In this document: positions 1,129-49,682 of the stretch, piece by piece
How positions within the stretch are numbered: the first letter of the stretch is position 1
Layout of the letters: each line of letters starts with the position of its first letter
Virus record (IMG/VR): IMGVR_UViG_3300036939_000056
Span: 1 to 49,682 of that record
DNA: 49,682 nucleotides
From: a virus
Strand: one strand, 5' to 3'
Program-made: the position numbers and the translations under genes
The notes under the pieces: generated by a model
Seen by the model: only the letters and a program-made list of their open reading frames with translations
Databases searched by the model: none
Told to the model about the DNA's origin: nothing

Positions 1129-1136
1129 AGCCCGTC

Positions 1137-1460: not shown

Positions 1461-1615
1461 GTTTGACTCCGCTTTGTCGCGACGTGCGACAATGAAGGCT
1501 GTCTACACGGTCTGGCCCAGCAGGGCCATACGTCAACTGGCCGATGACGACGACGCCGGGGGCATGAAATGGTTGGACTGCGCTGGGCACTGCTGCCCAG
1601 GCGGTGGGGTGAGGA

Positions 1616-5758: not shown

Positions 5759-6035
5759 GGGGTTCTTCCTCCTGTAATGGCCGGGACCAACCGGCATGGC
5801 AGGTGTTTTGTTTGTTGATGCCTGTGTTGTGCACCATGTCGCAGCGGGCGTCAAGCGGCTATCTGCGCAAGGGTGGGGGGTGAGCTTGCGTGCGCGGCCC
5901 CACGCCAGCAGAGTCGCGGGCATGGGAGTGCGGAAGCTCGAAAGGGAGGAGAGGGTTGCGCTGGTCGCATGGGTGCTTCTGGTGCTCGGCGGCAGCGCGC
6001 TCCTCGTGCTGCGACTGGCGTAGACGCGGTGGTTG

Positions 6036-6383
6036 TCAGCGCTTCTTCTTCGGCGCCGGCAGTAGCTCCGCGAGGTCTTCGTCCGTCGATGGGCGGAATG
6101 CCGACGAAAGCCGCGCGCCAACGGCCCGTAGCGCATCCTGCGGCGTCTCCACCACGTGGATGGGTCCTCCGCGCCAGATGGCGTGGACGTCCTCCTGGGC
6201 TTCGGTGAGGCCCTTGCCCGGGGACTTCACCTCCAACAGAAAGGTGGCCCCGCGGTAGCCAACAACCAGGTCCGGCAGTCCCTTCTCGGAGATGGACCAG
6301 ACGATGGCGCCAGCCAGGCGCAGGGCTGCGACAATGGCTGCCTCGGAGGCGTCACGCTTCGCTGCTCGCCTGCGCACGCTCAT
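6036..6383 (-). CDS. VRR-NUC family nuclease
   Basis: This 115-residue protein matches the stand-alone phage VRR-NUC fold (PD-(D/E)XK superfamily). It has an N-terminal helix (SEAAIVAALRLAGAIVWSI), the active-site Asp in GLPDLVVG (D38), EVK in FLLEVKSPG (E51, K53) and a downstream Gln (AQEDV). Family members are metal-dependent, structure-specific DNA nucleases. Length is typical for phage versions. The ATG at 6383 overlaps the upstream stop by ATGA, so it is translationally coupled in the replication operon and probably acts on replication or recombination intermediates. Confidence 0.87.
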   Translation of the reverse strand: MSVRRRAAKRDASEAAIVAALRLAGAIVWSISEKGLPDLVVGYRGATFLLEVKSPGKGLTEAQEDVHAIWRGGPIHVVETPQDALRAVGARLSSAFRPSTDEDLAELLPAPKKKR

Positions 6384-6814
6384 GCGGTTCCCGCTTTCGA
6401 TTCGGCCGTGACGCCGATCGCAATTGACAGCAGCGCATCGTAGTTCCCCTGGTATACGCAGCACGTCCATCCGCCGAAAGCGTCTGCCTTCACCCATCCT
6501 CCAGTGCGAGGGGGCGTGGCAAGACCGAACCACGCCCATGCAAGCGAGTCCTTCGGATGCTCGAGCACGCCGCCGAAGTTGCGTACCGCAGTGAGTGCTG
6601 CGGCGAAGCACCCGGCGTCCGCACCCTTGCGGTACTGGTTGGGCTTGCGCGGGGAGCCGCCCCAGCAGCGGCCCCAGCGCTGGCATGGCGGATGAGCTAC
6701 GACGGGGTGGGGCCCGTCGTAGAGGCGTGCGTCTCGCTCGAGTCCCCACACATCCACATCCGGCAAGTTTGCGTAGCAGCCCCGCGGGTCCACGAAGAGA
6801 GCGGCGACTCTCAT
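6380..6814 (-). CDS. Conserved phage protein with HPPCxRWG motif
   Basis: This 144-residue protein starts at the ATG that overlaps the preceding stop (ATGA at 6811-6814). It begins MRVAALFVDPRGCYANLP, followed by VVAHPPCQRWGRCWGG, GGVLEHPKDSLAWAWFGL and a C-terminal GGWTCCVYQGNYDA. I recognise this as a widespread uncharacterised phage family. The 'PPCQRW' segment recalls the PCQ motif of cytosine-C5 methyltransferases and LEHP recalls their ENV region, but the protein is too short for a full methyltransferase. A nucleotide- or DNA-modifying role is inference only. Confidence 0.72.
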   Translation of the reverse strand: MRVAALFVDPRGCYANLPDVDVWGLERDARLYDGPHPVVAHPPCQRWGRCWGGSPRKPNQYRKGADAGCFAAALTAVRNFGGVLEHPKDSLAWAWFGLATPPRTGGWVKADAFGGWTCCVYQGNYDALLSIAIGVTAESKAGTA

Positions 6815-7029
6815 GGCCGCCTCGCCTGGCGCTCGGCACGCACCCGGCCGCAGAAGTCCATGACGGCCAGCGCCACCCTGTGCCCCACGTTGAGGGGAGG
6901 GGCTTCGCGTTGAATGCGGTGTGCCCGGTGGCACTCGCCGCTCTCACGCCAGAGGACCTCGCATGCCTCGCACAGGGGCGAGCGCTCCGCTGGGGACTCG
7001 TTGCCGCACCCGGTTGCGCAGGAAGTCAT
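6811..7029 (-). CDS. Small zinc-binding protein
   Basis: This is a 72-residue protein with CATGCGNES and LCEACEVLW near the N-terminus, a likely four-cysteine zinc knuckle, followed by a basic helical part ending RVRAERQARRP. It overlaps both neighbours by ATGA, so it is part of the tightly coupled minus-strand early operon. A DNA- or RNA-binding role is likely but unproven. Confidence 0.65.
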   Translation of the reverse strand: MTSCATGCGNESPAERSPLCEACEVLWRESGECHRAHRIQREAPPLNVGHRVALAVMDFCGRVRAERQARRP

Positions 7030-7844
7030 GGCTTCACCGCGGGCTCGAGGATGTCCAGCGCATGGAGCCGAGCTCGTGAGATGGCGCCCAGCGCCGAGCA
7101 GGCCAGCGTGCCGCCTCCCCCAGCCCCACAGGCGCAGATTGCTGAGCCCCCGGCCCCGGGCGGGTGCTGCTTGCGGCAGGCGTCCCGCAGCGCCTGGAGT
7201 CGCTCCTCCGCAATCCCCGCCAGGGGTGCGGCCACGCTGCGCTCGAGTTCACCCACACGACGCTCGAGGGCCTTCCGCTCAGACGCGGAGCCACCACCCT
7301 GCGCCTCCAGCGCGTGTAGGGCGTGGTACGGGCAGAGCTCATTGTGAGGCCTGGGGGAGGGCTTGCCCACTGGCGCAACGCGTCCGTCAGTCCCCAGGCA
7401 CACCACGTCCTTGTTGCCGCGGAATGGGCAGAAGCCCTGCCAGTCGCCCCGCGCCCACTCGAGTTCCCTGAAGCGGGCCACCACATCCTCGAGCGCGTGC
7501 AGGCGCTCAAGGGCGCGCCCCACATGCTCCTCCAGTCCGAGCACGCCAGACACCTCGTCCTCCTCGGGAATACCAGCGGCTACGAGGGCCGCATGAATTC
7601 GTTCCGCCCCGGAGGGCTCGGAGTTGACGGACGCGCGGAGTGCCTCCAGCTCCGCCCTCTCCTGTGCCTCCATGGACGCCGCCACCCGCTCGCGCACCAG
7701 GGTTTCTAACTGCTCCGCGTGCTGGCGCCACAGCGCCGCCGCCTCCATCAGCCGCTCCAGCAGCCGCAGCGGTTCCTCCACCAGCAGCCCCCGCGACGCC
7801 TGCGCCTCGAACCACTCCCTCAGCCTCTTCTCGTCCTCGCTCAT
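7026..7844 (-). CDS. Coiled-coil protein with central Cys cluster
   Basis: This 272-residue protein starts at 7844, where GGGAGGA lies 7 nt upstream; the longer frame has no signal. Residues 1-130 are helical and charged (KRLREWFEAQASRGLLVEEPLR, then ALWRQHAEQLETLVRERVAA), consistent with coiled coil. The centre has GFCPFRGNKDVVCLG and ELCPYHALH, a possible zinc site. The C-terminus is another helix plus a Gly/Cys-rich segment (ICACGAGGGGTLAC). No known family is recognised. It lies upstream of the small Zn protein and the HPPC protein, with overlapping starts and stops. Confidence 0.68.
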   Translation of the reverse strand: MSEDEKRLREWFEAQASRGLLVEEPLRLLERLMEAAALWRQHAEQLETLVRERVAASMEAQERAELEALRASVNSEPSGAERIHAALVAAGIPEEDEVSGVLGLEEHVGRALERLHALEDVVARFRELEWARGDWQGFCPFRGNKDVVCLGTDGRVAPVGKPSPRPHNELCPYHALHALEAQGGGSASERKALERRVGELERSVAAPLAGIAEERLQALRDACRKQHPPGAGGSAICACGAGGGGTLACSALGAISRARLHALDILEPAVKP

Positions 7845-8005
7845 GCGTCCTCCCGGGCACCTCTGCCCGCTTTCGTCTCGACATGGGTCATTTCCGACAC
7901 CGTCATAGAATCGCCAGAAACCGGGCGTGGCGCGCAGATTTCCGACTGCCTGCCACAACCACGCCCCTTGAAATCATCTCGCAATGGCGGGCCGTTTCCG
8001 CTCGT

Positions 8006-8233
8006 TTAATCGGCATTGCCATTGTCCGCCCTGGCTGCCTTCTGCCACCAGGGTGAGTTGCAGCGGGGGTGGCACACCGGCCTGAGCTTCACCCCGTCGG
8101 CCGCTTCGAAGGGCCCCAGGGCCGAGTGCCAGCCGCAGAGGGCGCGGTAGCACCAGGCGCACCGGGTGGTGGCGCCCTTACCGCAGGGACAGAGGTAGCC
8201 GAGGGCCACGCCGCCTTCGCTGGGGGGCTTCAT
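8006..8233 (-). CDS. Small zinc-ribbon protein
   Basis: This is a 75-residue protein with LCPCGKGATTRCAWCYRALC followed by GWHSAL and CHPRCNSPWW, giving six or seven Cys plus His, enough for two zinc sites. Its start overlaps the preceding stop (ATGA, 8230-8233). This kind of B-box-like or ribbon protein recurs through the operon. Function unknown. Confidence 0.68.
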   Translation of the reverse strand: MKPPSEGGVALGYLCPCGKGATTRCAWCYRALCGWHSALGPFEAADGVKLRPVCHPRCNSPWWQKAARADNGNAD

Positions 8234-15592: not shown

Positions 15593-16215
15593 AAGAGGCA
15601 ACGGTAGAAGCGTTGGAGGCCCGAAGCATTCCAGAGCCAAACACAGGGTGCCTCCTTTGGTTGGGCGCCACGTATTCCAACGGGTACGGCTCCGTGCGGG
15701 TCGGCGGCTCGCGGGGCGTCGTGCATAGAACCCACCGACTAATGTACATGCTGGCGCACGGACCCATCCCTGCCGGCCACATGGTAATGCACCGCTGCGA
15801 TCAGCCGGCGTGCATCAATCCTGCCCACCTCACGACAGGGACGCCGCGAGATAATGTACAGGACATGGTCCAGAAGAGGCGACACGCGCACGGCCAGACG
15901 AGCGCAATGGCGCGGCTGTCCGAGGCGGATGTGCTCTCGATACGTAGCCGCCGCTCAGAAGGGGAACCGATTGCCGTTATCGCAAAGGACTTCGGCACAT
16001 CCCCTATGTACGTGTCGCACATCGTCCACGGGCGAACCTGGAGGCATTTGCCTGCGCCGCAGCCACATCCGCGTGTCGCCCGGCCTCGGAAGACATTTTG
16101 CGTGAAGGGCCATCCATACGATGCCGCGAATACATATGTCGCGTCGAGCGGCAAACGAACGTGTCGGGCCTGCAACCGCGCTGCCGCGGCACGTGTGGCG
16201 CGGAGGCGGAAATGA
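15589..16215 (+). CDS. HNH homing endonuclease
   Basis: This 208-residue protein has an HNH_3-type core: CLLWLGATYSNGYGSVRVGG, HRTHRLMYMLAHGPIPAGH, then MHRCDQPACINPAHL, which carries the catalytic His69 with Asn77 and His80 and the Cys pair. Residues about 108-155 (LSEADVLSIRSRRSEGEPIA ... SPMYVSHIVHGRTWRHL) form a helix-turn-helix DNA-binding segment. The last 45 residues hold another Cys pair (FCVKGHPYD, RTCRACNRAAA). Such modular proteins are mobile homing endonucleases. The overlapping start and stop with its neighbours suggest it is well settled in the operon. Confidence 0.88.
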   Translation: MKEATVEALEARSIPEPNTGCLLWLGATYSNGYGSVRVGGSRGVVHRTHRLMYMLAHGPIPAGHMVMHRCDQPACINPAHLTTGTPRDNVQDMVQKRRHAHGQTSAMARLSEADVLSIRSRRSEGEPIAVIAKDFGTSPMYVSHIVHGRTWRHLPAPQPHPRVARPRKTFCVKGHPYDAANTYVASSGKRTCRACNRAAAARVARRRK

Positions 16216-17201
16216 GCCTCACCGAAGAGCAGTTGCGCATCCGCCGCGGTGGCGTGACCGGGACGGACATCTGCGCCCTGCTCGGCAGCTCGCCCTTCTC
16301 CACGCCCTTCGACGTGTGGCTGGAGAAGCTTGGAAAGGCCGAGCCGAAGGAGGACACCCCGGACACGGAGCGGGGGAGATTTCTGGAAGATGGTGGCCGG
16401 CGCTGGTACGCGCACCGCACCGGTGCCATCCGCGTGGAGCAGCCGGGCACTGTGGTGAGTCGGCGCCACCCGCTCATCATCGCCACCCCAGACGGGGTGG
16501 CCCATCACCGGGACGGCGTGCGCGTCCTCGAAATCAAGATGCCCCGCCGCGCCCATGGCTGGGGCGAGCCGGGCACGGACGCGGTGCCACCCTGGTACCT
16601 CCCACAGGCGCTGTGGCAGCTCGCGGCGCTGGATATGGAGCGCGCAGATGTCTTCGCCGTGCTGGAGGGCGAGCCGTGTCTCTACCGCGTGGCTCGCGAC
16701 GTGGAGGTGGAGGGCCTGCTGGTGGAGACGGCCGAACGCTTCTGGAGGGACCACGTGCTCACCGGCAAGCCACCCGAGGTAACGGCGGCGGACTTGCCGA
16801 GCGCCTCCCGGTTCTTCCGCCGGCCCGACACGGAGGAGTACCTGGACTTCGCCGCCCTCCAGCCTGAGGCGCGTGCGGTGCTGGAGGAGTACTTGCGCGC
16901 GTACCAGGAGGAGTCGGCGGCGGCCGAGCGCCTGGCAACCTGGGAGGCGCGAGCGAAGCTGCTGCTGGGCGGTGCGCCTGGCGTGCGAGGGCTGCCCGAG
17001 GAGATGGGGTATTCCCGGCTGGATTGGAGGCAGAACAAGGCCCGCATGCGCACGGACTGGAAGTCCGTCCTCGCGGCGCTGGATGACGAGGACCCGGCCT
17101 TCGCCACGCGCATACGGGCGCTGGTGCAGCAGCACACCACGGTGGTGGAGGGAGAGCGCCCGTTCGTCCCCCGCCGCCTCACGAAGAAGAGGGGAAGATG
17201 A
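16212..17201 (+). CDS. YqaJ-type viral recombinase exonuclease
   Basis: This 329-residue protein matches the YqaJ/lambda-exonuclease family (PD-(D/E)XK fold). It has the N-terminal GVTGTDICALLGSSPF box, ERGRFLEDGGRRWYAHRTG, and the active site ATPDG (D94) with VLEIKMP (E107, K109), followed by WYLPQALWQLAALDMERADV, the usual Gln-containing helix. It degrades the 5' strand of double-stranded ends to expose single strands. Paired with the RecT gene 265 bp downstream it forms a two-component recombination system. The helical C-terminal third (EEYLRAYQEESAAAERLA) is typical. Confidence 0.92.
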   Translation: MSLTEEQLRIRRGGVTGTDICALLGSSPFSTPFDVWLEKLGKAEPKEDTPDTERGRFLEDGGRRWYAHRTGAIRVEQPGTVVSRRHPLIIATPDGVAHHRDGVRVLEIKMPRRAHGWGEPGTDAVPPWYLPQALWQLAALDMERADVFAVLEGEPCLYRVARDVEVEGLLVETAERFWRDHVLTGKPPEVTAADLPSASRFFRRPDTEEYLDFAALQPEARAVLEEYLRAYQEESAAAERLATWEARAKLLLGGAPGVRGLPEEMGYSRLDWRQNKARMRTDWKSVLAALDDEDPAFATRIRALVQQHTTVVEGERPFVPRRLTKKRGR

Positions 17202-17470
17202 ACATGGATAAAATCCATGAGGCGCTGGCCATTGCGAAGAATCTCGGAGCCCATGTCGGACTCATCGAGGAGGCCCGGTCTGAGTTGGCGGCAATCCGCC
17301 AGGCCTGCCGGATACTCAGTGCTGAGGGCATTGAGGACTTCGTCTACACGGTGCGAGACCGGGCGGGGCCTGACGCCTCGTTCACCGGCAACCCCTGGGA
17401 GCACCCGCGCGTCGAGGCGTATGCGAAGGCAGCATCCCTCATCACCAAGATTGCGAAGGAGAGCGCATGA
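17198..17470 (+). CDS. Small helical protein between exonuclease and RecT
   Basis: This is a 90-residue protein (MNMDKIHEALAIAKNLGAHV, EEARSELAAIRQACRILSAE, VEAYAKAASLITKIAKESA), almost all helix. It overlaps the exonuclease stop and the RecT start by ATGA. No family is recognised. Its fixed place between two interacting recombination proteins suggests an accessory role in recombination, which is inference. Confidence 0.7.
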   Translation: MNMDKIHEALAIAKNLGAHVGLIEEARSELAAIRQACRILSAEGIEDFVYTVRDRAGPDASFTGNPWEHPRVEAYAKAASLITKIAKESA

Positions 17471-18384
17471 GCGGCCAGGCAATTCAGAAGGCGCAGCCAG
17501 GGGCGGTGGACAAAATGCTTGCCGTCATCATGCAGGACATCGCCTCCCGGCAGGCGAAGCTGGAGGACTTGCTGCCGCCGGACATGACCCCTGCGCGCTT
17601 CACCGCCTCCGTGGGCCTGGCCCTGGCGCAGCAACCCGCTCTGCTGAAGTGCGATCGGGGAAGCATCGTCCTATCGGTGATGAAGGCCGCGAAGCTCGGG
17701 ATTGACGTGGCTGGTGGCGCGCTTGGACACGGCGCCCTGGTGCCGTTCGGCACCGAATGCACCTTCGTCCCCATGTACAAGGGCCTCGTCATGCTCGCGG
17801 TGACGTCGGGGGTGGTGAAGGATGTGACACCGGTCCTCGTCTACGAGAAGGATCACTTCGCGCTCACCGAGGGTGACACCCCCCACGTGGAGCACAGGCC
17901 GTACGTGCCGCGAAAGGCGACGGACGGCCGCGGAGACATCATCGCCGCGTACACGCGCATCACCCTTCCGGATGGCACCAGGGTCATCAAGGGCATGCTG
18001 TACGCGGACGACATCGCCCGGGTGGAGGCTTCCACCAAGGGGAGGAATACGCCATGGAGCAGCCCCCACCGGCCGGAAATGGTGAAGAAATCCACGCTGA
18101 AGAACGCCTTCAAGACATTGGGGGTACCAGCCGGAGAGCAGGCGGCGCGGCTGCGCGAGGCATTGGCGGCCGACATCGAGGCGGAGGCCCGCGGCGTGGA
18201 CGAACATGCCACGCACACGCTCATGCCGGAGCCGACGAGTGGAGTGGCTGGCCTCAAGGCGGCGCTCAAGGCGAAGAAGACGCCACCTCTCGAGGAGGCG
18301 CAGGTGGAGCTCGTCTCCCACAACCTCGCGAACCCGAACGCCGAGCCGCCCGACGACATGCGCCTGCCGGGGCAGGAGGGCTGA
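17467..18384 (+). CDS. recT: RecT-family single-strand annealing protein
   Basis: This 305-residue protein carries the RecT family sequence: PARFTASVGLALAQQPALLK, SIVLSVMKAAKLGIDVAGG, ALVPFGTECTFVPMYKGLVM, DDIARVEAST and the W...HRPEMVKKSTLKNAFKTLG block near residue 200. RecT coats the single strands produced by the exonuclease and anneals them to homologous DNA, serving phage recombination and concatemer formation. The acidic, Pro-rich C-terminal tail (about 250-305) is variable in the family and may contact host SSB or other partners. Confidence 0.94.
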   Translation: MSGQAIQKAQPGAVDKMLAVIMQDIASRQAKLEDLLPPDMTPARFTASVGLALAQQPALLKCDRGSIVLSVMKAAKLGIDVAGGALGHGALVPFGTECTFVPMYKGLVMLAVTSGVVKDVTPVLVYEKDHFALTEGDTPHVEHRPYVPRKATDGRGDIIAAYTRITLPDGTRVIKGMLYADDIARVEASTKGRNTPWSSPHRPEMVKKSTLKNAFKTLGVPAGEQAARLREALAADIEAEARGVDEHATHTLMPEPTSGVAGLKAALKAKKTPPLEEAQVELVSHNLANPNAEPPDDMRLPGQEG

Positions 18385-26296: not shown

Positions 26297-26678
26297 GCGC
26301 GGCGCTCGCACCGCCTGCGGTTATCGCCGGTGGTTGCACTCACGCTGCCGCGCCACTCCGGCGAGACGCCGGGGCACCGCAGCTCGCCACCGACATCTCG
26401 GGCGCTCTGGAGGCCACGGGCAACCGGGGAGAGGTTCCGGGTGCGGTTGCCCTCCGGGAGACACCCTTGCCGGCCGTGGCGTGCTTTCCTCGCGGCTTGC
26501 GCCGCTTGGTCGTGTTCTCCGTGCGCTGCGCGCCCGTCGCCTCGCCGGTTGCTCTCGAGGCTGGCAGCGCGCCGCGAGAGGCCACCGACTTGCTGCGCTA
26601 CCCCGCTGCCTCGCCGAAGTGGCGCGGCAGCGTGAGTGCAACCACCGGCGACAACCACAGGCGGTGCGAGCGCCGCGC
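26297..26678. repeat. 382-bp imperfect palindrome with 66-bp near-perfect inverted arms
   Basis: Bases 26297-26362 and the reverse complement of 26613-26678 agree at all but about three positions. Similarity continues inward with more mismatches (gcgag, cgggg, gcagc, then ctctcg, gcaaccgg), so the whole element is two inverted copies of a ~190-bp sequence. Each arm can be read as the same short peptide (KWRGSVSATTGDN / EWRGSVSATTGDN), a by-product of the symmetry. No flanking target duplication is obvious. It looks like a MITE or REP-like mobile element or a structured locus. Confidence 0.75.
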
Positions 26679-28845: not shown

Positions 28846-29595
28846 ATGAGCCTGTTTCTCGTCTACGCACTTGTCGATCCGCGCACCCAGCAGGTTCGAT
28901 ACATCGGGAAGTCGTGCAGTGGGATGGAGCGCCCCAGGCAGCACGCCATGCCCTGTTTCCTGCGGGGAAAGACGCACAAGGAGAACTGGGTGCGTGCCGT
29001 CCTGGGTGCGGGACTGGAACCAGAGATTCGCGTTCTGGAAGCCGTTTCCGGACCAGAGGCACTGAGCGAGGCGGAGCGGGCGTGGATTACCCACGGGCGC
29101 GAGGCAGGATGGCCGCTCACGAACGCGACGAGCGGGGGCGACGGGCTCCCGGGGTTGGTTCGGACGGCGGAGCATCGACGGAAGGTTTCCGAGGCGCTGA
29201 AGGGTCGCCCCCTGCCTGATTCCACCCGAGCCGCCATGGCAGCGGCTTTCCGAGCGAGAGTGGCGCAGGATCCCGAGGGGGTTCGGGAGTTGTCTCGAAA
29301 GGCAGCGAGTGCCGCGTGGGCGAAGCCTGGGGCGAAAGCGCTCGCCTCCGCTCGTGCGCGTGCTGCGTGGGAAGACCCCGCCACGCGCGCGCGGATGATA
29401 GAGGCCCGTGCCGGGATCAAGCACACGGAGGAGCACAAAGGGAAGATCGGGGCCGCGTCGAAGAAGGCGTGGCAGGATCCGGAGTACCGAGAAAAAGTCC
29501 TGGCCTCTCGCCGAGGTCGGAAGCTCTCGCCGGAACACCGCGAGAAACTACGCATCGCCGCCGTCGCGAGAGAGGCCAGGAAGCGCAATGGCTGA
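28846..29595 (+). CDS. GIY-YIG homing endonuclease
   Basis: This 249-residue protein has the N-terminal GIY-YIG-type core (VYALVDPRTQQVRYIGKSCS, with E..W ... TNATSGGDG downstream) and a C-terminal set of NUMOD3-like repeats (HRRKVSEALKGRPLPDSTR, KHTEEHKGKIGAASKKAW, KLSPEHREKLRIAA) that bind DNA. It cuts sites lacking the insertion, which spreads its gene. It sits exactly between the terminase subunits, with its start 3 bp after one stop and its end overlapping the other start by 8 bp, so it is an intergenic insertion tolerated by the operon. Confidence 0.9.
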   Translation: MSLFLVYALVDPRTQQVRYIGKSCSGMERPRQHAMPCFLRGKTHKENWVRAVLGAGLEPEIRVLEAVSGPEALSEAERAWITHGREAGWPLTNATSGGDGLPGLVRTAEHRRKVSEALKGRPLPDSTRAAMAAAFRARVAQDPEGVRELSRKAASAAWAKPGAKALASARARAAWEDPATRARMIEARAGIKHTEEHKGKIGAASKKAWQDPEYREKVLASRRGRKLSPEHREKLRIAAVAREARKRNG

Positions 29596-31564
29596 CGTCA
29601 AGAGCGTCCGCATGGCTGCCGTCCGGTCCGGGTTGAGGCCGCCTCCGCGCCTGTCGTTGTCGGCATGGGCGGACGAGCATTTCCGCTTGAGCGCCGAGAG
29701 CGCGGCCCAGCCCGGGCGCTGGCGAACACTGCCATACCAGCGGGGGATTCTTGACGCGATCACCGACCCGAAGGTCACACACATCAGCGTGCTCAAGAGC
29801 GCTCGTGTGGGTTACACGCTGATGGTTAGCGCCGCCATCGGGTACTACATCCATCACGCGCCGGCCCCCATCCTCGTGGTGATGCCCACGGTGGACGACG
29901 CTAAAAATTTCTCCAAGGAGACCATCGCGCCGATGTTGCGAGATGTACCCGTTCTCTCGCGGATCGTGTTCGAGGATGCGGACGAAAGGGGAGGCAAGGA
30001 CGGCGGCAATACCTTGCAGCACAAGAAGTTCGCCGGCGGCATCCTGTCGTTGATTGGTGCCAACTCTGGCGCGGGCTTCCGGCGTGTGTCTCGGAAGGTT
30101 GTGATCTTCGACGAGGTAGACGGGTACCCGTTGAGCGCCGGAAGCGACGGAGACCCAATCAGCCTGGGCGTGAAGCGTAGCGAATACTTCTGGGACCGGA
30201 AAATCATCGCCGGGTCCACACCACTCGTCGCTGGCGTCTCCAGAATTGAGCGCCTCTTTGAGCAGGGCGACCAGCGGCGCTATCACGTCCCTTGTCCCCA
30301 CTGTGGGCACTTCGCTCCGCTAGTGTTTCGAGGCGACAAGGGCCACCGAATGGAGTGGCCGGAAGGCAAGCCAGAGGAAGCGTTCTTTTCCTGTCAGGCA
30401 AACGGCTGCGTCATCGAGCACAAAGAAAAGCGGGAGATCGTCGAGCGCGGCGAGTGGCGGGCGGACAACCCGCACACGGATAAGGAGAAAGAGGCCGGCG
30501 GCCTGCACGTCAGTTTTCATCTCTGGGCGGCATATAGCTACAGCCCGAACGCGGCGTGGGGGGCGATAGCCAAGGAGTTTCTGGAGGCCAAGGATGACCC
30601 GGAGACCCTGCGAACCTTCGTGAACACGGTGCTCGGAGAGACGTTTCAGGAGACCGGCGAAGCCCCGGACTGGGAGCGGTTGATGGCCCGGCGCGAGCCC
30701 TACCCCATCGGCGCCGCGCCAGAGGGCGCCCTGTTTCTCACCGCCGGCGTGGATGTGCAGAAAGACAGGTTCGTCTACGAGGTGGTGGGGTGGGGCATGG
30801 GCAAGGAGTCCTGGAGCGTGGACGCCGGAGTCCTCCCCGCCGACACCTCGGACATCCGCAGTTACGAGCGCCTGGACGAACTCCTGGACAGGGACTTCGG
30901 CGGCCTGTCCATTCGTTGCCTCGCCGTGGACTCGGGCTTCAACACCAACGCCGTCTACTCCTGGGTGCGCACCAAGCCGGCTTCCCGGGTGCTGGCGGTC
31001 AAGGGCGCAGCGGGGGCCCGCTCACTGGTGTCGAGTCCCACGAAGGTGGATGTGACGCTGAAGGGCAAGCGGCTTGCCCGGGGCTGCCAGGTGTGGCCCG
31101 TGGGCGTGGACGTGGCGAAGTCGGAGCTGTACGGCTGGCTGGGGCTCCAGCGGCCTGAGGAGGGGCAACCCTACCCCCCAGGCTGGTGCCACTTCCCGGA
31201 GTATGGCGAGGAGTTTTTCAAGCAGCTGACGGCCGAGCACCTGGTGCAGGAGAAGGACGCCAAGGGCTTCCTCCGTCACGTGTGGACCCCACAGCCGGGC
31301 AGGGAGAACCACTTCCTCGACGCCCGGGTGTATGCCCGCGCCGCGGCGGCCGTGGCGGGGTTGGACCGAATGCGGCGAACTCCGACGCCAGCGCAGGAGA
31401 TTGCCGAGTTTGCCCGCGCGGTGGCAGACGCACAGGGCGCCGCGAAACAGACACCGCCCCCGCCAGCCCCAGCGCCACAACGGACTTTCCCGCACGAGCC
31501 CCGGCGGCCCGGCGGCTTCCTCTCGGATGCACGGCGTCCACGTAGTAAGGGATGGCTGAGATGA
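29588..31564 (+). CDS. Terminase large subunit (GpA family)
   Basis: This 658-residue protein matches the lambda GpA terminase family. It has the N-terminal ATPase with the Walker A-like KSARVGYT (about 70-77), the VVMPTVDDAKNFS motif (about 97-109) and Walker B VVIFDEVDGYP (about 171-181). A CPHCGH ... SCQANGC zinc site lies near 240-280, and the C-terminal nuclease region includes TAGVDVQKDRFVYEVVGWG and AVDSGFNTNAVYSW. The last 60 residues are Pro-rich. It powers DNA translocation into the capsid and cuts the genome. Length is normal for the family. Confidence 0.94.
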   Translation: MADVKSVRMAAVRSGLRPPPRLSLSAWADEHFRLSAESAAQPGRWRTLPYQRGILDAITDPKVTHISVLKSARVGYTLMVSAAIGYYIHHAPAPILVVMPTVDDAKNFSKETIAPMLRDVPVLSRIVFEDADERGGKDGGNTLQHKKFAGGILSLIGANSGAGFRRVSRKVVIFDEVDGYPLSAGSDGDPISLGVKRSEYFWDRKIIAGSTPLVAGVSRIERLFEQGDQRRYHVPCPHCGHFAPLVFRGDKGHRMEWPEGKPEEAFFSCQANGCVIEHKEKREIVERGEWRADNPHTDKEKEAGGLHVSFHLWAAYSYSPNAAWGAIAKEFLEAKDDPETLRTFVNTVLGETFQETGEAPDWERLMARREPYPIGAAPEGALFLTAGVDVQKDRFVYEVVGWGMGKESWSVDAGVLPADTSDIRSYERLDELLDRDFGGLSIRCLAVDSGFNTNAVYSWVRTKPASRVLAVKGAAGARSLVSSPTKVDVTLKGKRLARGCQVWPVGVDVAKSELYGWLGLQRPEEGQPYPPGWCHFPEYGEEFFKQLTAEHLVQEKDAKGFLRHVWTPQPGRENHFLDARVYARAAAAVAGLDRMRRTPTPAQEIAEFARAVADAQGAAKQTPPPPAPAPQRTFPHEPRRPGGFLSDARRPRSKGWLR

Positions 31565-33281: not shown

Positions 33282-33319
33282 TGGACACCACCACCCTTTG
33301 TGTGTGAGCCTGGAGGCCC

Positions 33320-35335
33320 ATGACGACAGCCACGCAGACTCGCAGCGTTCCCCCTTTGTCCATGCGCGCGGAGCTCGTCCCCGGAAGCCTCAACGAGGAG
33401 GCCCGCACGGTGGACATCATCTGGACGACGGGCGCCCGGGTGTTGCGCCGCTCCTTCTGGGACGGGGACTTCTACGAAGAGCTGAGCCTCGACCCGAAGC
33501 ACGTCCGCATGGGCCGCCTTGAGTCCGGCCGGGCCCCGTACCTCCGTGCCCACAATATCTGGGACCCGGATGCGCACGTGGGTGTCGTCGTTTCCGCTCG
33601 CCTGGAGGACAGGCGCGGAGTCGCCACCATCCGCTTCCTCCAGGGAGACGCGGAGGCGGACAAGGAGTGGAACAAGGTCCGCCAAGGAGTGCTCACTACC
33701 TTCTCCGTGGGCTACCGCGTCTACAAGTTCGAGAAGACGGAAGGGGGCGATGGCGCCACACCCGTCATGCGCGCCACGGACTGGGAGCCGGTGGAGCTCA
33801 GCGGCGCGGCCATTCCCGCCGACGCTGGGGCCCACGCACGCAGCAGTCCCGACCTCAATCCCTGTGAATTTGTCAATGCCACTCGCGGCGCCGAGCCGCA
33901 CATGAAGGAGAACAAGGTGCCCGAGTCCAACGCAACCTCCCCCGCCAGTCCCCAGGGCCAGGACGCCCTGCGCGCCGCCGCCGTGGAGGCGGAGCGCGCG
34001 CGTGTGGCCGAGATCACCGCGCTCGTCCGGAAGGCCGCGCTGCCCCCGGAGACGGGGGACGCCCTCATTGCCGGGGGCAAATCGGTGGACGAGGCCAGGG
34101 CTGTCATCTTCGACAAGATCATGGAGCGCAGCGCCTCTCACGGACCAATCCCAACCCCCAGCGGCGCCGTGGAGGTGGCACGCAGCGAGCGCGACAAGCG
34201 TTTGGAGGGAATGACGGCGTGGATGCTCGAGCGCTCGGGCTACGCGGACCTCATCGCCCGTGCCCAGCAGGACGCGAAGCATGGCCGACGCCTCAAGGGC
34301 ACGCCGCTGGACGGGGGAGAATTCCGGGGCACGCGCCTGCTCGATCTGGCGCGGATGTGCCTGGAGAGCGCGGGCGTGAAGACGCGGGGCATGGATGCCA
34401 TGACGCTCGTGGGCCACGCCTTCACGCACCGGGCAGGGGGCTACCAGACAACCGCCGAGTTTGGAGTCCTCTTCGAGAATGTCATGCACAAGCTGGTGCT
34501 GGGGGCCTACGCCACCACCCCGGACACGTGGAGCCGCTTCTGCGCCACCACCACCGTTTCGGACTTCCGGCCGAGCAATCGCTACCGGGCGGGCAGCCTG
34601 GGCGAGCTGGACTCTCTCAACGAGCACGGAGAATTCAAGAACAAGAATCTTCCAGACGGGGAGAAGTTCGCCGTCTCCACCGGCACCAAGGGGAACATCG
34701 TCGCCCTGTCGCGGCAGGCCATCATCAACGACGACCTGGGCATGCTTGCGGACATGGCGACGAAGCTCGGCAGGGCCGCCCGTTTGAGCATCGAAATGGA
34801 CGTATACCGGCTGCTTGCCGCCAACAGTGGCATGGGCCCCACCATGGCGGACGGCAACCCCTTCTTCCATTCCAGCCGCGGCAATGTGAATTCCACGGGC
34901 TCGGCCCTGTCTGTCGCTGGCCTCGATGCGGACCGGGTGGTGATGGCGCAACAGAAGGACCAGAGCGGAAACGAGATTCTGGACTTGCGTCCCGCGGTGC
35001 TGCTGCTGTCCACCGGCCTTGGCGGGGAGGGGCGCCTCCTCAACGATGCGGCGTATGACCCGGGGGACAACAAGTTCATGAAGCCCAACCGGGTGCGCGG
35101 CCTCTTTCGTGACGTCGTGGACACCGCCCGGCTGTCTGGCACTCGTCGCTACCTCTTCGCGGATCCGGCGATCGCCCCCGCTTTCATGGTGGCCTTCCTC
35201 GAGGGACAGGGGCAGGAGCCCGTGGTGGAGAGCGAGAATGGCTGGCGCATTGACGGCACCGAGTGGAAGGTGCGCCTGGACGCGAAGGCCCAGGCGTTTG
35301 ACCCGCGTGGCGCCGTCACCAACGCGGGCGCGTAG
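33320..35335 (+). CDS. Fused prohead protease and major capsid protein
   Basis: This 671-residue protein joins two functions. Residues 1-190 are a capsid maturation protease of the S35/U35 type, with LRAHNIWDPD (His78) and TTFSVGYRV (Ser129) as expected catalytic residues. A linker follows (about 190-290, PESNATSPASPQGQ plus a charged helix likely serving as scaffold). The C-terminal ~370 residues are the major capsid protein, with AGGYQTTAEFGVLFENVMHK, WSRFCATTTVSDFRPSNRYR, GNIVALSRQAIINDDLG and NKFMKPNRVRGLF. The precursor should be cleaved during prohead assembly. GGAGG precedes the ATG. Confidence 0.92.
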   Translation: MTTATQTRSVPPLSMRAELVPGSLNEEARTVDIIWTTGARVLRRSFWDGDFYEELSLDPKHVRMGRLESGRAPYLRAHNIWDPDAHVGVVVSARLEDRRGVATIRFLQGDAEADKEWNKVRQGVLTTFSVGYRVYKFEKTEGGDGATPVMRATDWEPVELSGAAIPADAGAHARSSPDLNPCEFVNATRGAEPHMKENKVPESNATSPASPQGQDALRAAAVEAERARVAEITALVRKAALPPETGDALIAGGKSVDEARAVIFDKIMERSASHGPIPTPSGAVEVARSERDKRLEGMTAWMLERSGYADLIARAQQDAKHGRRLKGTPLDGGEFRGTRLLDLARMCLESAGVKTRGMDAMTLVGHAFTHRAGGYQTTAEFGVLFENVMHKLVLGAYATTPDTWSRFCATTTVSDFRPSNRYRAGSLGELDSLNEHGEFKNKNLPDGEKFAVSTGTKGNIVALSRQAIINDDLGMLADMATKLGRAARLSIEMDVYRLLAANSGMGPTMADGNPFFHSSRGNVNSTGSALSVAGLDADRVVMAQQKDQSGNEILDLRPAVLLLSTGLGGEGRLLNDAAYDPGDNKFMKPNRVRGLFRDVVDTARLSGTRRYLFADPAIAPAFMVAFLEGQGQEPVVESENGWRIDGTEWKVRLDAKAQAFDPRGAVTNAGA

Positions 35336-36645: not shown

Positions 36646-36834
36646 ATGAGAGTACAGCCGAAGCCCGGGGTATTGGTGCGCCACCCCGTTACCAAGCAAC
36701 CCCTTCCGCCCGGGGGAGCGGAGGTGGAGGACTCCTCCTTCTGGTTGCGCCGTCTGCGTGACGGGGACGTGGGGGCCGTGCCACCCCCGCAGCAGCAGCA
36801 CAACGAGCCTTCGAGCAATGAGGTGAAACCGTGA
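36646..36834 (+). CDS. DUF2635 protein
   Basis: This 62-residue protein (MRVQPKPGVLVRHPVTKQPL, PPGGAEVEDSSFWLRRLRDG) is a DUF2635 member, a small protein always found just upstream of the sheath in Mu-like tails (Mu gp38 position). Its role is unknown. Its last codons overlap the GTG of the sheath gene. Confidence 0.85.
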   Translation: MRVQPKPGVLVRHPVTKQPLPPGGAEVEDSSFWLRRLRDGDVGAVPPPQQQHNEPSSNEVKP

Positions 36835-38315
36835 GCATTCCCTTCGGCTCTGTACCTGCGGCGCTGCGGGTGCCATTCGTCGCGGTGGAGATTGACTCCT
36901 CGGGCGCCCAGCAGGGCCCGGCCCTCCTCTCCTACCGCGTCCTCCTCCTCGGGCAGAAGACGGCCGCCGGCAGCGCGGAAGCCGACTCCCTCCACCGCGT
37001 CACCAACCCCGACGCCGTGGCCACGCTGGCGGGCCGTGGCTCCCTGCTGCACCGACAGGCCCTCGCCTACTTCGCCAACAACACCTCGACGGAGACGTGG
37101 GTGGGCGTGCTGGAGGACGAGGGGGCTGGCGTCGCGGCGACGGGCACCCTCACCGTCACCGGGCCGGCAACGGCCACTGGCACCCTCTCTCTCTACGTCG
37201 CTGGCACTCGCGTGCCGGTGGGCGTGTCGAGCGGCTCCACGGCGGCCACGGTGGCCGCCAGCATCGCAGCGGCCATTACCGCCAGGCCCAATCTCCCGGT
37301 GACGGCGGCGGTGGGCAGCGGGGGCAACACGCACATCGTCACCCTCACCGCGCGCAACAAGGGCACCCACGGCAACGGAATTGACGTGCGGCTCAACTAC
37401 CAGGACGGTGAGGCCACCCCGGCAGGCGTGGGTGTGACGGTGGCCCCCATGTCCGGAGGAGACACCAATCCCTCCCTCGCCGGCATCATCGCCACCATGG
37501 GAGATTCCTGGTTCCAGGTGGTGGCCCACCCCTACACGGATGCCACCAGCCTCTCGGCGCTGGAGACGGAGCTCGCCAGCCGCTTCGGGCCCATGCGGAT
37601 GATTGACGGCCTGGCCATCACCTCGGCAGCAGGCTCCTTCGCGACGCTGACAACGCTGGGCAACAGTCGCAACAGCCCGCACAGCTGCATCGTGGCGCAG
37701 CCCGGCGCCAACCCCCTCACGCCTCCGGCCGAGTACGCGGCCATGGTGGCGGGCGTGGTGGCCCGCTACGCGCCGCAGGACCCGGCCCGGCCCCTCCAGA
37801 CGCTACCCGTGGTGGGTGCGCTGGCGCCAGCCGAGGCGGACCTGTTCACGCTGGAGGAGCGCAACCTACTGCTCTTCGACGGCATCGCCACCACCACGGT
37901 GGCCGGCGGCGGGCTGGTGCAGCTCGAGCGCCTCATCACCACCTACCAGACGAATGCCTCCGGCTCCGAGGACACGGCGTACCTCGACGCCACGACGCTG
38001 CTGAATCTCATGTTCCAGCGCTTCTCCTTCCGCACCCGCATCCGCACGCGCTACCCCCGGCACAAGCTCGCCGACGACGGGACGCGCGCGGGCGCCGGCC
38101 AGGCCATCATCACCCCGAGCACCGGCAAGGCCGAGGCGGTGGCGTGGTTTCGGGAGATGGAGGCGCTCGGGTTGGTGGAAAATTTCGAGCTCTTCAAGAA
38201 GTCGCTGGTGGTGGAGCGCAACGCGCAGGATCCCAACCGGCTCGATTTCATGCTGCCTCCAGACCTCATCAATCAACTCATTGTCTCGGCGGCGAATATT
38301 CAACCCCTTCTGTGA
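36831..38315 (+). CDS. Tail sheath protein (Mu gpL-like)
   Basis: This 494-residue protein (GTG start) is the contractile sheath subunit. It has the N-terminal domain (VPAALRVPFVAVEIDSSGAQ, SYRVLLLGQKTAAGSAEADS), an inserted beta domain around 100-190 (TLTVTGPATATGTLSLYVAG), and the conserved C-terminal part (LQTLPVVGALAPAEADLFTL, ERNLLLFDGIATTTVAGGG, LNLMFQRFSFRTRIRTRYPR, FMLPPDLINQLIVSAANIQ). It packs around the tube and contracts on infection, proving a myovirus-type tail. Length is usual for Mu-like sheaths. Confidence 0.94.
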   Translation: MSIPFGSVPAALRVPFVAVEIDSSGAQQGPALLSYRVLLLGQKTAAGSAEADSLHRVTNPDAVATLAGRGSLLHRQALAYFANNTSTETWVGVLEDEGAGVAATGTLTVTGPATATGTLSLYVAGTRVPVGVSSGSTAATVAASIAAAITARPNLPVTAAVGSGGNTHIVTLTARNKGTHGNGIDVRLNYQDGEATPAGVGVTVAPMSGGDTNPSLAGIIATMGDSWFQVVAHPYTDATSLSALETELASRFGPMRMIDGLAITSAAGSFATLTTLGNSRNSPHSCIVAQPGANPLTPPAEYAAMVAGVVARYAPQDPARPLQTLPVVGALAPAEADLFTLEERNLLLFDGIATTTVAGGGLVQLERLITTYQTNASGSEDTAYLDATTLLNLMFQRFSFRTRIRTRYPRHKLADDGTRAGAGQAIITPSTGKAEAVAWFREMEALGLVENFELFKKSLVVERNAQDPNRLDFMLPPDLINQLIVSAANIQPLL

Positions 38316-44543: not shown

Positions 44544-45593
44544 ATGCCCTTTTCTCGTCCCTCCCTCGCGGAGTTGGTGACTCGGACGCAGCAGGATCTC
44601 GTCTCCCGCCTCGGGCTGACGGGGGACGTGCTGCGCCGCTCCGTGGTGAGCGTCCTCGCCCGCGTCCTCTCCGGTGCCGTGCACATGCTTCACGGCCACC
44701 TGGAGTACCTCGGCGTGCAACTCTTCCCCGACACCAGCGACAGAGAATTCCTCCTGCGTCAGGCCTCCGTCTACGGGTTGAGTCCCACGCCGGCCGACTT
44801 CGCCCGGGGCACGGTGACGGTGACAGGCACCAACGGGGCGGTGCTGCCCGCCGGGGCGGTGCTGCTACGCGCGGACGGCATGGAGTACACCACGGACGCG
44901 GATGCCACGGCAGCGCTGGGGGTGGCCACCGCCCAGGTGACGGCCACCCTCGCTGGCGCCGCGGGCACGCTCAGCGCTGGACTGGTGCTGACGCTCCAGT
45001 CCCCCGCACCGGGCCTCGCCACGGTGGCCACGGTGACGGCCAGCACCTATGACGGGGTGGACGAGGAGAGCACCGAGGCCCTCCGGATGCGGCTCCTCGA
45101 GCGCTTGCGCCAGCAGCCCCAGGGCGGGGCCGCGCCGGACTATGTGGCCTGGGCCAAGGGCGTCCCGGGCGTCACCCGGGTATGGGTTTCGCCGCTGGCC
45201 CTCGGCGTGGGTACCGTGGTGCTGCGCTTCGCCCGCGACAACGACGCGAGCCTCATTCCGGACTCGGCAGAGGTAGCGGCCGTGCAGGCGTACGTGGACG
45301 CGCGCCGCCCTGTTACCGCGGCGGTGACGGTGATGGCGCCCACCTCTGCTCCCCTCAACCTCACCCTTGCCGTGGTGCCCAACACGGTGGCGGTGAGGGA
45401 CGCGGTGGCGGCGGAGCTGCGCGACATGTTGGAGAGGACAGCCGCCCCGGGGGCAGCAGTGCTGCTGTCCAGCATTCGCACAGCCATTGGCGTGGCGGAA
45501 GGCCTCACGGACTACACCCTCACTTCTCCCACCGGCAACTTCGTACCGCCTGCGGGCGGGCTGCCCGTGCTGGGGACACTTACATGGCTGTAG
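44544..45593 (+). CDS. Baseplate J protein (Mu gp47-like)
   Basis: This 349-residue protein has the J-family features: PSLAELVTRTQQDLVSRLGL, HMLHGHLEYLGVQLFPDTSD, LRQASVYGLSPTPADFARGT, GAVLPAGAVLLRADGMEYTT and DEESTEALRMRLLERLRQQP, then AAPDYVAWAKGVPGVTRVWV and the C-terminal FVPPAGGLPVLGTLTWL. It builds the wedges of the baseplate and passes the signal for sheath contraction. Length and order match Mu-like phages. GCGGGAGGCGC upstream supports the start. Confidence 0.93.
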   Translation: MPFSRPSLAELVTRTQQDLVSRLGLTGDVLRRSVVSVLARVLSGAVHMLHGHLEYLGVQLFPDTSDREFLLRQASVYGLSPTPADFARGTVTVTGTNGAVLPAGAVLLRADGMEYTTDADATAALGVATAQVTATLAGAAGTLSAGLVLTLQSPAPGLATVATVTASTYDGVDEESTEALRMRLLERLRQQPQGGAAPDYVAWAKGVPGVTRVWVSPLALGVGTVVLRFARDNDASLIPDSAEVAAVQAYVDARRPVTAAVTVMAPTSAPLNLTLAVVPNTVAVRDAVAAELRDMLERTAAPGAAVLLSSIRTAIGVAEGLTDYTLTSPTGNFVPPAGGLPVLGTLTWL

Positions 45594-46141
45594 GTGCAGA
45601 GGCATACGCGCGGCAGTTGAAGCAGCTGCTGCCCCCCGGGAAGCTGTGGCTGCTGGAGGAAGACAGCGTCCTCTCCGCCTTCATGTTGGGCCTGGCCGAG
45701 GAATTCGCCCGGGTGGACGCGCGCGGCCAGGCCCTGCTGGAGGAGGCCGACCCACGCACCTCGACGGAGTTGCTTGCCGAGTGGGAGAGGGTGCTGGGCC
45801 TCCCTGACGACGCCGTGCTGTCCATTCCCTCCACCGAGGAGGGCCGCCGCCTGGCCGTGGTGACGAAGCTGCTCGCCACGGGCGGGCAGAGCAAGGCGTA
45901 CTTCCAGGCATTGGCGGCCGTCGCTGGCTACTCGGTGAGCATCTACGACGCCTTTGGGCTGACGGTGGCCCGCGTAGGCCGCACCCGGGCCGGACAGCGC
46001 TGCGTGGGGACGGCGTGGGCGCACACCTGGCGGGTAACGGTTTCGCCGCCCACGGGCCCGGCCCTCACCACGCAGGAGTTGGAGCGCTTCATCCGCCGGG
46101 CCGCGCCCGCGCACACAGCCGTCATCTTCACCTACCTGTAG
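45584..46141 (+). CDS. Baseplate protein (Mu gp48-like, DUF2313)
   Basis: This 185-residue protein begins MAVGAEAYARQLKQLLPPGK, LWLLEEDSVLSAFMLGLAEE, FARVDARGQALLEEADPRTS, LLAEWERVLGLPDDAVL, the standard start of DUF2313/gp48 proteins, and ends with FIRRAAPAHTAVIFTYL. It links the baseplate wedges and fibres in Mu-type tails. It overlaps gp47 by 10 bp. Confidence 0.92.
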   Translation: MAVGAEAYARQLKQLLPPGKLWLLEEDSVLSAFMLGLAEEFARVDARGQALLEEADPRTSTELLAEWERVLGLPDDAVLSIPSTEEGRRLAVVTKLLATGGQSKAYFQALAAVAGYSVSIYDAFGLTVARVGRTRAGQRCVGTAWAHTWRVTVSPPTGPALTTQELERFIRRAAPAHTAVIFTYL

Positions 46142-47331: not shown

Positions 47332-48456
47332 ATGTACCGCACGGACGCCGCTGGACACGTCGCCAACAAGTACGACAACGGGGACCCTACCATTCCCCGG
47401 GAAGCCACCATCATCGACGCCACCCACCTCAACGCCATTCAGGAGGAGCTGGCGGGCACGGTGGAGGGCCTCGGGGGCACCCTCAACAAGGCCGACAACG
47501 GCCAGCTGCTCTCCCGCCTCAACGCCACCTACGGTCGCCTTGGCACCACCAACACCTGGACGCTCGCTCAGACGTTCAGCGGCAACGTCAGCGTGGGCGG
47601 AACCTTCGGCGCCACCGGCAACGCCTCGCTCGGTGGTGGACTTTCGGTGACGGCCAGCACCACGCTTACGGGCCCCCTCACCGCCAACGGAACCACCCGC
47701 GTCAACGCCTCCGTGGGCTTCAACGCGACGCCGGGCACCTTCGGCTTCGACTACCAGACGGCCCCCACCGGGGATGCCCTGGCCCGGTGGGGCAGCAACA
47801 TGCCGCTCGTCATCCGCTCCGGGTCCACCAACACCCCGGGGCTGGGCTTCAATATGTACGCCAACAGCGGCAACCAGCGGGTCGTCTCGGGCTACGCCTC
47901 GGAGATGCTGCAAGTCGCGGACGGCACCATCCGCTTCAGCACGGGCGGTACGGGGGCGGCAGGGGCCATTGCGACCCTGACGGAGAAGGTGCGGATTGGT
48001 TCGGCGGCGCCTGCCACTCCATCAGCCCCCCAGAATTCGTTTAGCGTGCTGAACGGGTACATCGCCTTCGCGTCAGACAACCCCAACAGCAACGTGGCGT
48101 TTCAGAACACGATCACCCCCCGAAGCACCGAGAAGGTGTCAGCCTCAATCACCACTTCCAGCAGTGGGCAGACCATCGTCGATGGCCTGAACGTCACTGG
48201 CGTAAGCCTCGTCCCGGGAACCAGCAACCAGGTGCTGCGGATAACGTTCGCGGCGGGCTTCTCAACTTCGAACTACCAGGTTTCTTTGACGCCGGACGCT
48301 GGCGCCAGCGGGGCCAACATGTTCGTTCCTGGATTCACCAACAAGACGTCGACAAGCGTCGACGTCCGTGGCTACATCCTGGCAGGGGGAGGCGCCGTCG
48401 ATTTCAACACCGGTGTCATCTACCGCTTCGACATCCGGATTGTAGGCGCCCAGTAG
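47332..48456 (+). CDS. Tail fibre protein, copy 2
   Basis: This complete 374-residue fibre starts MYRTDAAGHVANKYDNGDPT, the conserved attachment domain shared with copy 1. Beta repeats follow (GNVSVGGTFGATGNASLGG, TASTTLTGPLTANGTTRV), then a unique middle (FDYQTAPTGDALARWGSN, VIRSGSTNTPGLGFNMYANS) and a C-terminal domain with NGYIAFASDNPNSNVAFQNT, ending IRIVGAQ. The first 50 residues probably bind the baseplate, while the unique C-terminal parts contact the host. GAGGAGGCAGCACGC precedes the ATG. No chaperone gene is recognised. Confidence 0.88.
   Translation: MYRTDAAGHVANKYDNGDPTIPREATIIDATHLNAIQEELAGTVEGLGGTLNKADNGQLLSRLNATYGRLGTTNTWTLAQTFSGNVSVGGTFGATGNASLGGGLSVTASTTLTGPLTANGTTRVNASVGFNATPGTFGFDYQTAPTGDALARWGSNMPLVIRSGSTNTPGLGFNMYANSGNQRVVSGYASEMLQVADGTIRFSTGGTGAAGAIATLTEKVRIGSAAPATPSAPQNSFSVLNGYIAFASDNPNSNVAFQNTITPRSTEKVSASITTSSSGQTIVDGLNVTGVSLVPGTSNQVLRITFAAGFSTSNYQVSLTPDAGASGANMFVPGFTNKTSTSVDVRGYILAGGGAVDFNTGVIYRFDIRIVGAQ
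47359..47484 (+). repeat. Exact direct repeat, fibre 5' segment (copy B)
   Basis: This segment is identical to bases 1-126. It lies 27 bp inside the fibre gene and ends where the two fibre genes start to differ. Confidence 0.97.
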
Positions 48457-48463
48457 TTGGCGG

Positions 48464-49138
48464 CTACTGGCACAGGTCGTTGCCCTCCGGGTCCTTGAGA
48501 ACCGGGTTGTCACGAATTACAATGGGCGCCCATGTCTGTTGGAAATCGACGCCAATCTCGTCGAAGTAGATGGGACTAGAGGGCATGCTGGCCGTGGGCC
48601 CGCCAACAGCCAACGAAAAAAAGCGTGCTTCCTTGGTGACAAGCATGTCCAGAGTTTTTGTCACCCACTCACCGGTGGTGACGGGCCCAGCGTTGTCGTA
48701 CTGCTTGTAAAGGAATTTCTTGTTTGTGTCGTACCAGTATATCGCCACCTCTGCGCACGGCGAGCCCGTGCATGTGTCGAGCCCCTTGTAGACAGATAGA
48801 CCAATACGATAGGGGCGGAGTGGGCATCGCGGCTGGGGGTCATTGGCGATGGCGGGCACGCCCGAAATCCTGCTGTGGACGAGACAGCCGCTCTTGGTAA
48901 TGCGAAGCGCGCCTGGCCCTGCGACGGTGGGACTCGATACGATGGCTGCGCCATTGTCCCAGTCGCAGTTGCGGCCTGGGTACCAGAAGTCCGCATCATC
49001 TGGCGCGTACGAGCCACGCAGGGGCGATGGCGGGTCAAACAACCACTGCTCGGCGTCCGGGTCCTGTACTGATGGGGCGTTCTGACCACATGCAACGATC
49101 AGCAACATGCACACGAGAAGGTACAGAAACGGCTTCAT
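48464..49138 (-). CDS. Lipoprotein downstream of fibre copy 2
   Basis: This 224-residue protein has a lipoprotein signal (MKPFLYLLVCMLLIVACGQN; lipobox IVAC, Cys17) and strong AAGGAGAT before the ATG. The mature domain is beta-rich and looks like a jelly-roll carbohydrate-binding module: NCDWDNGAAIVSSPTVAGPG, LRITKSGCLVHS, LRPYRIGLSVYKGL, AEVAIYWYDTN, TGEWVTKTLDML and PIYFDEIGVDFQ. Local base composition is lower in GC than the fibre gene. It points against the fibre with only 7 bp between stops. In the other cassette an unrelated lipoprotein has the same position. Confidence 0.82.
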   Translation of the reverse strand: MKPFLYLLVCMLLIVACGQNAPSVQDPDAEQWLFDPPSPLRGSYAPDDADFWYPGRNCDWDNGAAIVSSPTVAGPGALRITKSGCLVHSRISGVPAIANDPQPRCPLRPYRIGLSVYKGLDTCTGSPCAEVAIYWYDTNKKFLYKQYDNAGPVTTGEWVTKTLDMLVTKEARFFSLAVGGPTASMPSSPIYFDEIGVDFQQTWAPIVIRDNPVLKDPEGNDLCQ

Positions 49139-49306
49139 GCTTATCTCCTTGTCTTCCAAGCACCGGTTTGGCCCCGGCGGGTTGAGCCACTACCATTTCA
49201 TGGCAATCCACACCCCGCCATCCGTCAACCGGCCGATGGTGGCGACCTGGGTCATGTGGGAAGGTGGGACTGCGCCGGGCGCTTCTGCCCGGGCGGGGGG
49301 TGTGGA

Positions 49307-49682
49307 ATGACACCGGAAGAGATTGAGCGGGCGCACGTGGAGCGATTCATGAGGGCGGCCCGGCGTGAGGTATTCCATGAGGAGTGGCAGCGGCGGCACC
49401 GGGTGCGCGCCACCCTGGCCCTGGTGCTCACCCTCATGGTGCCCGCCGGGGTGCTGCCGGTGAGCTGCGGCCACGCGGCCCGGCAGGTGGTTGACGAGGC
49501 CCTCGTCGAAGAGTCCCCGCCGGAGGTGTGGGCCACGGACGGGGAGGTGGACGCTGGAGTCATCGCCCGGCCCATGCCGTCCAAGCCCTTCAAGGGGCAG
49601 AAGACGCCCCCGTGCAAGGGGAAGGGAGAGGTGGAGCTCGCCGGTGGGTGCTGGGTGGCCCTGAAAACACCGCCCGAGCCCG
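49307..49682 (+). CDS. Membrane-anchored Cys-rich protein, copy 2 (3' end missing)
   Basis: The window ends after 125 codons of a protein nearly identical to that at 1616-2086: same charged N-terminus (MTPEEIERAHVERFMRAARR), membrane segment (LALVLTLMVPAGVLPVS) and first part of the Cys domain (GQKTPPC, GGCWVALKTPP). It is the third member of the family in the window. The truncated C-terminus would supply the remaining cysteines. Function unknown. Confidence 0.82.
   Translation, partial: MTPEEIERAHVERFMRAARREVFHEEWQRRHRVRATLALVLTLMVPAGVLPVSCGHAARQVVDEALVEESPPEVWATDGEVDAGVIARPMPSKPFKGQKTPPCKGKGEVELAGGCWVALKTPPEP
49307..49682 (+). repeat. Direct repeat, Cys-rich gene (copy B)
   Basis: This segment matches 1616-1991 without gaps. 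Differences are concentrated in the first half, and the last 200 bases differ at one position only. Confidence 0.93.

Follow-up and report, generated by a model that had tools for sequence, protein, structure and literature searches.

Two fibre-lipoprotein-Cys-rich cassettes at the ends of a viral contig, probably co-existing alleles of one locus

Phage Mu switches between S and U fibres, in which the N-terminus is constant and the C-terminus variable. Tail-fibre variation between near-identical phages has been documented in metaviromic islands, where co-existing phages differ at host-recognition genes and the fibre N-terminus is conserved while its C-terminus varies (PMC3909814). The lipoprotein Llp of phage T5 causes superinfection exclusion by blocking a protein receptor (PMC9586334). 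On the assembly side, Chen and Banfield simulated contig breaks, with within-population variation among the causes, and reported that contigs broken by metaSPAdes overlap at their ends by the maximum k-mer size, maxK; one of their benchmark assemblies used k up to 127 (COBRA, PMC10914622).

The DNA analysed here, designated the window, is the complete record IMGVR_UViG_3300036939_000056 (virus, IMG/VR), positions 1-49,682, which is classed as 'linear'. Its gene content is that of a contractile-tailed phage with tail genes of the Mu type: terminase (29408-31564), sheath (36831-38315), portal, fused capsid/protease, tape measure and baseplate J-like proteins are encoded, the left half carries replication genes and a RecT/YqaJ pair, and the baseplate genes (J-like, Mu gp48-like) extend to 46141. 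Exact 26- and 30-base patterns found no near-identical DNA in the viral contig collection, which may leave out close records, and the only match in a single sheath scan of genome contigs for chromosomal relatives was a Chthonomonas MAG contig. Three other features were observed in the window: a pentapeptide-repeat protein at 4625-5758 on the minus strand (PF00805, 2.6e-51) with a strong DNA period of 15 b at 4961-5646; an 87-b inverted repeat, 90.8% identical, at 26297-26383 and 26592-26678, about 210 b apart and upstream of the packaging genes; and, at 28846-29595, immediately preceding the terminase gene, an ORF that contains a NUMOD3 motif and may encode a homing endonuclease.

The initial annotation had reported the gene order fibre (+), lipoprotein (-), Cys-rich protein (+) at 1-2086 and again at 47332-49682, with both edges of the window lying inside these cassettes. 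Gene calls confirmed this arrangement, fibre 1 being open at its 5' end at the window start and Cys-rich gene 2 at its 3' end at the window end. The features of the two cassettes are as follows.

1-1128, plus strand: fibre 1 (putative allele 1), 5' cut, with conserved N-terminal module, glycine-rich middle and C-terminal tip; phrog_6859, tail fiber, 3e-5
1137-1460, minus strand: lipoprotein 1, 107 aa, lipobox LFGC (MLFGC), GGAG ribosome site
1616-2086, plus strand: Cys-rich protein 1, membrane/lipoprotein-like, complete; C-terminal domain common to Mx8 p2/p60, Mx9 p38/p94 and Mx4 p02/p71
45584-46141, plus strand: Mu gp48-like baseplate protein, which in relatives anchors the fibre locus on its upstream side
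47332-48456, plus strand: fibre 2 (putative allele 2), complete; phrog_1858 1e-9, phrog_2617 2e-9
48464-49138, minus strand: lipoprotein 2, 224 aa, lipobox IVAC (LLIVAC), AGGAG ribosome site
49307-49682, plus strand: Cys-rich protein 2 (putative allele 2), 125 of 156 codons, truncated at its 3' end where the contig stops

The likeness of the two cassettes is no chance match, because both main shared segments gave blastn E values of 5e-75 or less. The spacing was also alike, with 8 b in cassette 1 and 7 b in cassette 2 between the fibre and lipoprotein stops, and 155 b and 168 b, respectively, between the lipoprotein and Cys-rich starts. The reported identity of 126 bases in the fibre genes proved exact, the first mismatch falling at base 127; it spans fibre codons 10-51, and fibre 1 lacks the first 9 codons if its start is that of fibre 2. 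The next 60 b are about 73-87% identical and the middle is barely alignable. The fibre C-terminal parts and the lipoproteins had been described as different, which holds for the fibre middles and for the lipoproteins, which have no real mutual similarity, but not for the fibre tips, which are homologous yet divergent (about 35-38% amino acid identity) and have homologues in Mx8 p64 and Mx9 p14. Similarly, the Cys-rich gene was said to be common to both cassettes, and its 3' part is indeed near-identical, but 12 of the first 50 codons differ (7 synonymous, 5 non-synonymous); in the next 75 codons only 3 differ, all synonymous. In each cassette, identity thus lies towards the outer edge while the inside has diverged, a pattern that alleles between common flanks would show. 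Neither cassette yielded a useful signal when scanned for promoters and terminators.

Among approximately 50,700 phage records, the Cys-rich protein matched only Myxococcus phages, and no relatives were found in viral contigs or plasmids. These matches, together with the Mx8 p64 and Mx9 p14 matches of both fibre tips, make a myxobacterial host likely, as judged from gene content. The Mx phages share with the window the Cys-rich C-terminal domain (Mx8, Mx9 and Mx4) and the fibre tip (Mx8 and Mx9), but Mx9 has a short tail, as has its close relative Mx8, the gene order differs and the Mx phages have no fibre-lipoprotein-Cys cassette of the same order. A similar neighbourhood occurs in Mx8 (L060) at 33297-34593, where, beyond the virion genes, the lipoprotein-like p58 and p59 and the Cys-rich p60 are neighbours on one strand.

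Both lipoproteins have a signal peptide with a lipobox by direct reading of the sequence. No relatives of lipoprotein 1 were found among the phages searched, or of lipoprotein 2 in viral contigs, phages or the PDB. An AlphaFold model of lipoprotein 2, made without an alignment, had a pLDDT of 38.5 and was discarded, and a carbohydrate-binding jelly roll, an impression from reading alone, was set aside.

The ends of the window are each repeated once within it, and a second identity run, of 127 bases at the right end, was absent from the initial annotation. The two end repeats are listed below.

1-126 = 47359-47484, plus strand: contig start repeat of 126 b, the identical fibre segment and presumed conserved N-terminal anchor; probable graph breakpoint on the left, with the putative allele branch point at its end
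49556-49682 = 1865-1991, plus strand: contig end repeat of 127 b; probable graph breakpoint on the right and closing point of the proposed 47,691-b circle

Exactly one 127-mer is repeated in the whole window, and it is the last 127 b; no 127-mer is repeated in inverted orientation. For k=127, an end repeat of exactly k was therefore found at the right end, while that at the left end, 126 b, was one base short. None of 28 control contigs had end repeats of this kind. Because of the end overlaps, the unique repeated 127-mer, the clean controls and the maxK overlaps reported for metaSPAdes, the window ends are best read as assembly-graph breakpoints rather than phage termini. As in the COBRA breaks, which repeats or within-population variation bring about, the overlap at the contig end is exactly one k-mer long; the difference is that here it is internal to the contig, as in a circle plus a tail, and that the opposite end falls short by one base.

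The initial annotation had offered two readings, a tandem pair of cassettes in one circular genome or allelic cassettes from a mixed population that had been linked during assembly. Graphs with an assumed k of 127 were built for each. In model B, two circles had a common backbone and differed in one cassette; in model A, one circle contained both cassettes with an assumed junction. The model B graph had 2 branch vertices and 3 unitigs (45,620, 1,992 and 2,325), with a shared backbone of about 45.6 kb, and the path arm 1, backbone, arm 2, minus its first base, was the window, letter for letter. The model A graph had 4 branching vertices and 6 unitigs; the window was also a path through it once repeats were resolved, but this graph needs the unseen junction and two further repeats resolved. 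Mixed-population alleles are consequently favoured, since they reproduce the window to within one base, over the tandem pair, which needs an unseen junction and is rare in relatives. The 0.1-0.3 kb thought to be missing at the join is not required, because the two-allele path reproduces the window without added sequence.

The preferred explanation, to which we assign a probability of about 0.62, is that the contig contains two co-existing alleles of one fibre-lipoprotein-Cys locus, from two near-identical phages of one sample, that were joined by the assembler and are exchanged by homologous recombination. One genome would be a circle of 47,691 bp (window 1865-49555) carrying cassette 2; the other, otherwise near-identical, would be a circle of 47,358 bp whose cassette arm (window 127-1864) became attached to the contig. 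That the alleles reside in otherwise near-identical, co-existing genomes is implied by the single shared backbone of the graph model. Each genome would have one such locus, downstream of the baseplate genes. The alleles would have in common the N-terminal anchor of the fibre (codons 10-51 at the least) and the Cys gene towards its 3' end, and would differ in the shaft and tip of the fibre, in the lipoprotein and in the Cys gene towards its 5' end. The N-terminus, predicted to attach the fibre to the baseplate, would be kept constant, and specificity would lie in the shaft and tip.

Some observations speak against this explanation. To attach a different arm on either side of a common backbone is not what an assembler normally does, the tandem model yields the same path, two relatives have tandem modules and the left overlap is 126 b. 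The last may have a technical origin. Where a branch has weak coverage, the assembler metaSPAdes removes its first k-mer, and the one-base deficit was attributed to this step. If so, arm 1 would be the minor allele, although the removal should then act at its other end as well.

Recombination through the identical segments, as first proposed, is plausible, since similar exchange occurs in relatives and the window encodes two candidate recombination proteins.

16212-17201, plus strand: viral exonuclease of the YqaJ type, which may act with RecT in recombination; PF09588, 5e-23
17467-18384, plus strand: annealing protein of the RecT family, which may drive the exchange of cassettes; PF03837, 7e-24

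The homology in the fibre start and in the Cys gene would provide two crossover zones, so that everything between them is exchanged, either between co-infecting relatives or with prophages, probably with the assistance of the phage RecT and YqaJ. Exchange of alleles would alter receptor specificity, and we infer that it may switch host range.

In relatives, a profile of the fibre N-terminal module was run on those loci in which 5 kb or more follow the baseplate genes; a few of these loci are duplicates of one contig. Comparison of cassette number in related genomes, counted as fibre modules, gave one module in 27 of 30 loci, none in 2 and two in 1, so that tandem arrangements exist but are rare. 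Two modules in tandem were seen in L005 and L007, the former with 4.9 kb downstream, which is below the 5-kb cut-off; in both, a small same-strand gene lies between the fibres instead of a lipoprotein and a Cys gene. The loci L102 and L103 are 94.6% identical upstream, diverge at about 240 b into the fibre gene and are again 98.9% identical downstream, while in the group of L010, L087 and L089 (96.6-97.7% identical) the break falls 460-570 b past the start of the fibre gene. On this sequence comparison, exchange at a single locus, broken within the fibre gene, appears to be recurrent among relatives. A conserved fibre N-terminus and a divergent C-terminus at one genomic place, the mark of a variable tail-fibre locus, are found in the window and in the relatives likewise. 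A separate feature of L103 is a 106-b direct repeat (92%) at 5854-5959 and 7935-8040 that brackets a DNA methylase/restriction-type ORF (5958-7877); ORF and repeats lie between the variable fibre and the endolysin region and are absent from the near relative L102.

The possibility that both cassettes belong to one genome, in the order fibre 2, lipoprotein 2, Cys 2, fibre 1, lipoprotein 1, Cys 1 on a circle of about 49.8-49.9 kb, with virions that would have two fibre types, is unlikely but has to be taken seriously. Assembly would have failed where two repeats (Cys, at least 127 b; fibre, at least 126 b) adjoin at the junction, and failure at that point alone is plausible because the junction needs fragments longer than about 375 b plus the spacer, as against about 154 and 222 b for the outer repeats. 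The window is a path in the corresponding graph and L005 and L007 provide a precedent, but this arrangement requires 0.12 kb and a spacer that are not seen in the record, two modules occur in only 1 of the 30 adequately long loci of relatives, and the gene between the fibres of L005 and L007 is small and on the same strand, not a lipoprotein and Cys pair. Moreover, outer edges that are 100% identical around unrelated middles would imply recent gene conversion limited to the edges.

A chimera or contamination, in which arm 1 came from another, more distant phage with nothing but the identical edges in common and was misjoined at base 1865, is improbable. The G+C content of both arms (65.1 and 63.7%) is below that of the whole window (68.0%), and codon bias is weaker in fibre 1 (GC3 of 76.9%, compared with 84.5% in fibre 2), as such an origin might leave. 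However, gene order, strands and spacing are alike in both arms, and the Cys copies are still about 91-93% identical outside the exact repeat, which indicates that the arms are homologous alleles of one locus. It is very improbable that both arms arose in one lineage by programmed switching, whether by Mu-type inversion, a shufflon or a diversity-generating retroelement. The resemblance to Mu is real in that the tail is of the Mu type and the constant N-terminus and variable C-terminus recall the Mu fibre architecture. Unlike in Mu, the cassettes are in direct orientation rather than that of an invertible segment, and neither an inversion nor an inverted copy of them is seen. No serine invertase, integrase or reverse transcriptase was found among the ORFs scanned, which were part of those in the window; the arms differ by modules and not by point changes, and there is no silent store of alternatives besides the arms themselves.

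Fibre swapping among near-identical phages is already well known; here a different lipoprotein gene accompanies each fibre. In contrast to the metaviromic islands, which the locus otherwise resembles, the opposite-strand lipoprotein and part of the Cys-rich gene are exchanged too, the host is probably a myxobacterium, and the basis is one contig and not read recruitment. The co-variation of lipoprotein and fibre is the sole part unmatched to a described case, and two alleles in one contig set no rule. Since a lipoprotein with its own ribosome site and lipobox lies within the exchanged unit, its inclusion suggests a surface function linked to the fibre. As a working idea, the lipoprotein is perhaps a receptor blocker like T5 Llp, also a small phage-encoded lipoprotein linked to a receptor-binding function; the likeness is one of possible action, by analogy and not by sequence relation. 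A stricter version, in which a fibre tip and a lipoprotein that blocks exactly that tip's receptor travel together as a matched pair, is doubtful.

If the preferred explanation of two alleles is correct, what looks like a duplication of the host-recognition cassette in a 'linear' viral contig can be understood as a pair of alleles at one locus on a complete circle, so that gene counts and genome completeness change for records of this type. If the lipoprotein pairs with the fibre, fibre swapping would bring its own exclusion gene along, and, were the two a matched pair, one cassette exchange would change host recognition and superinfection exclusion together.
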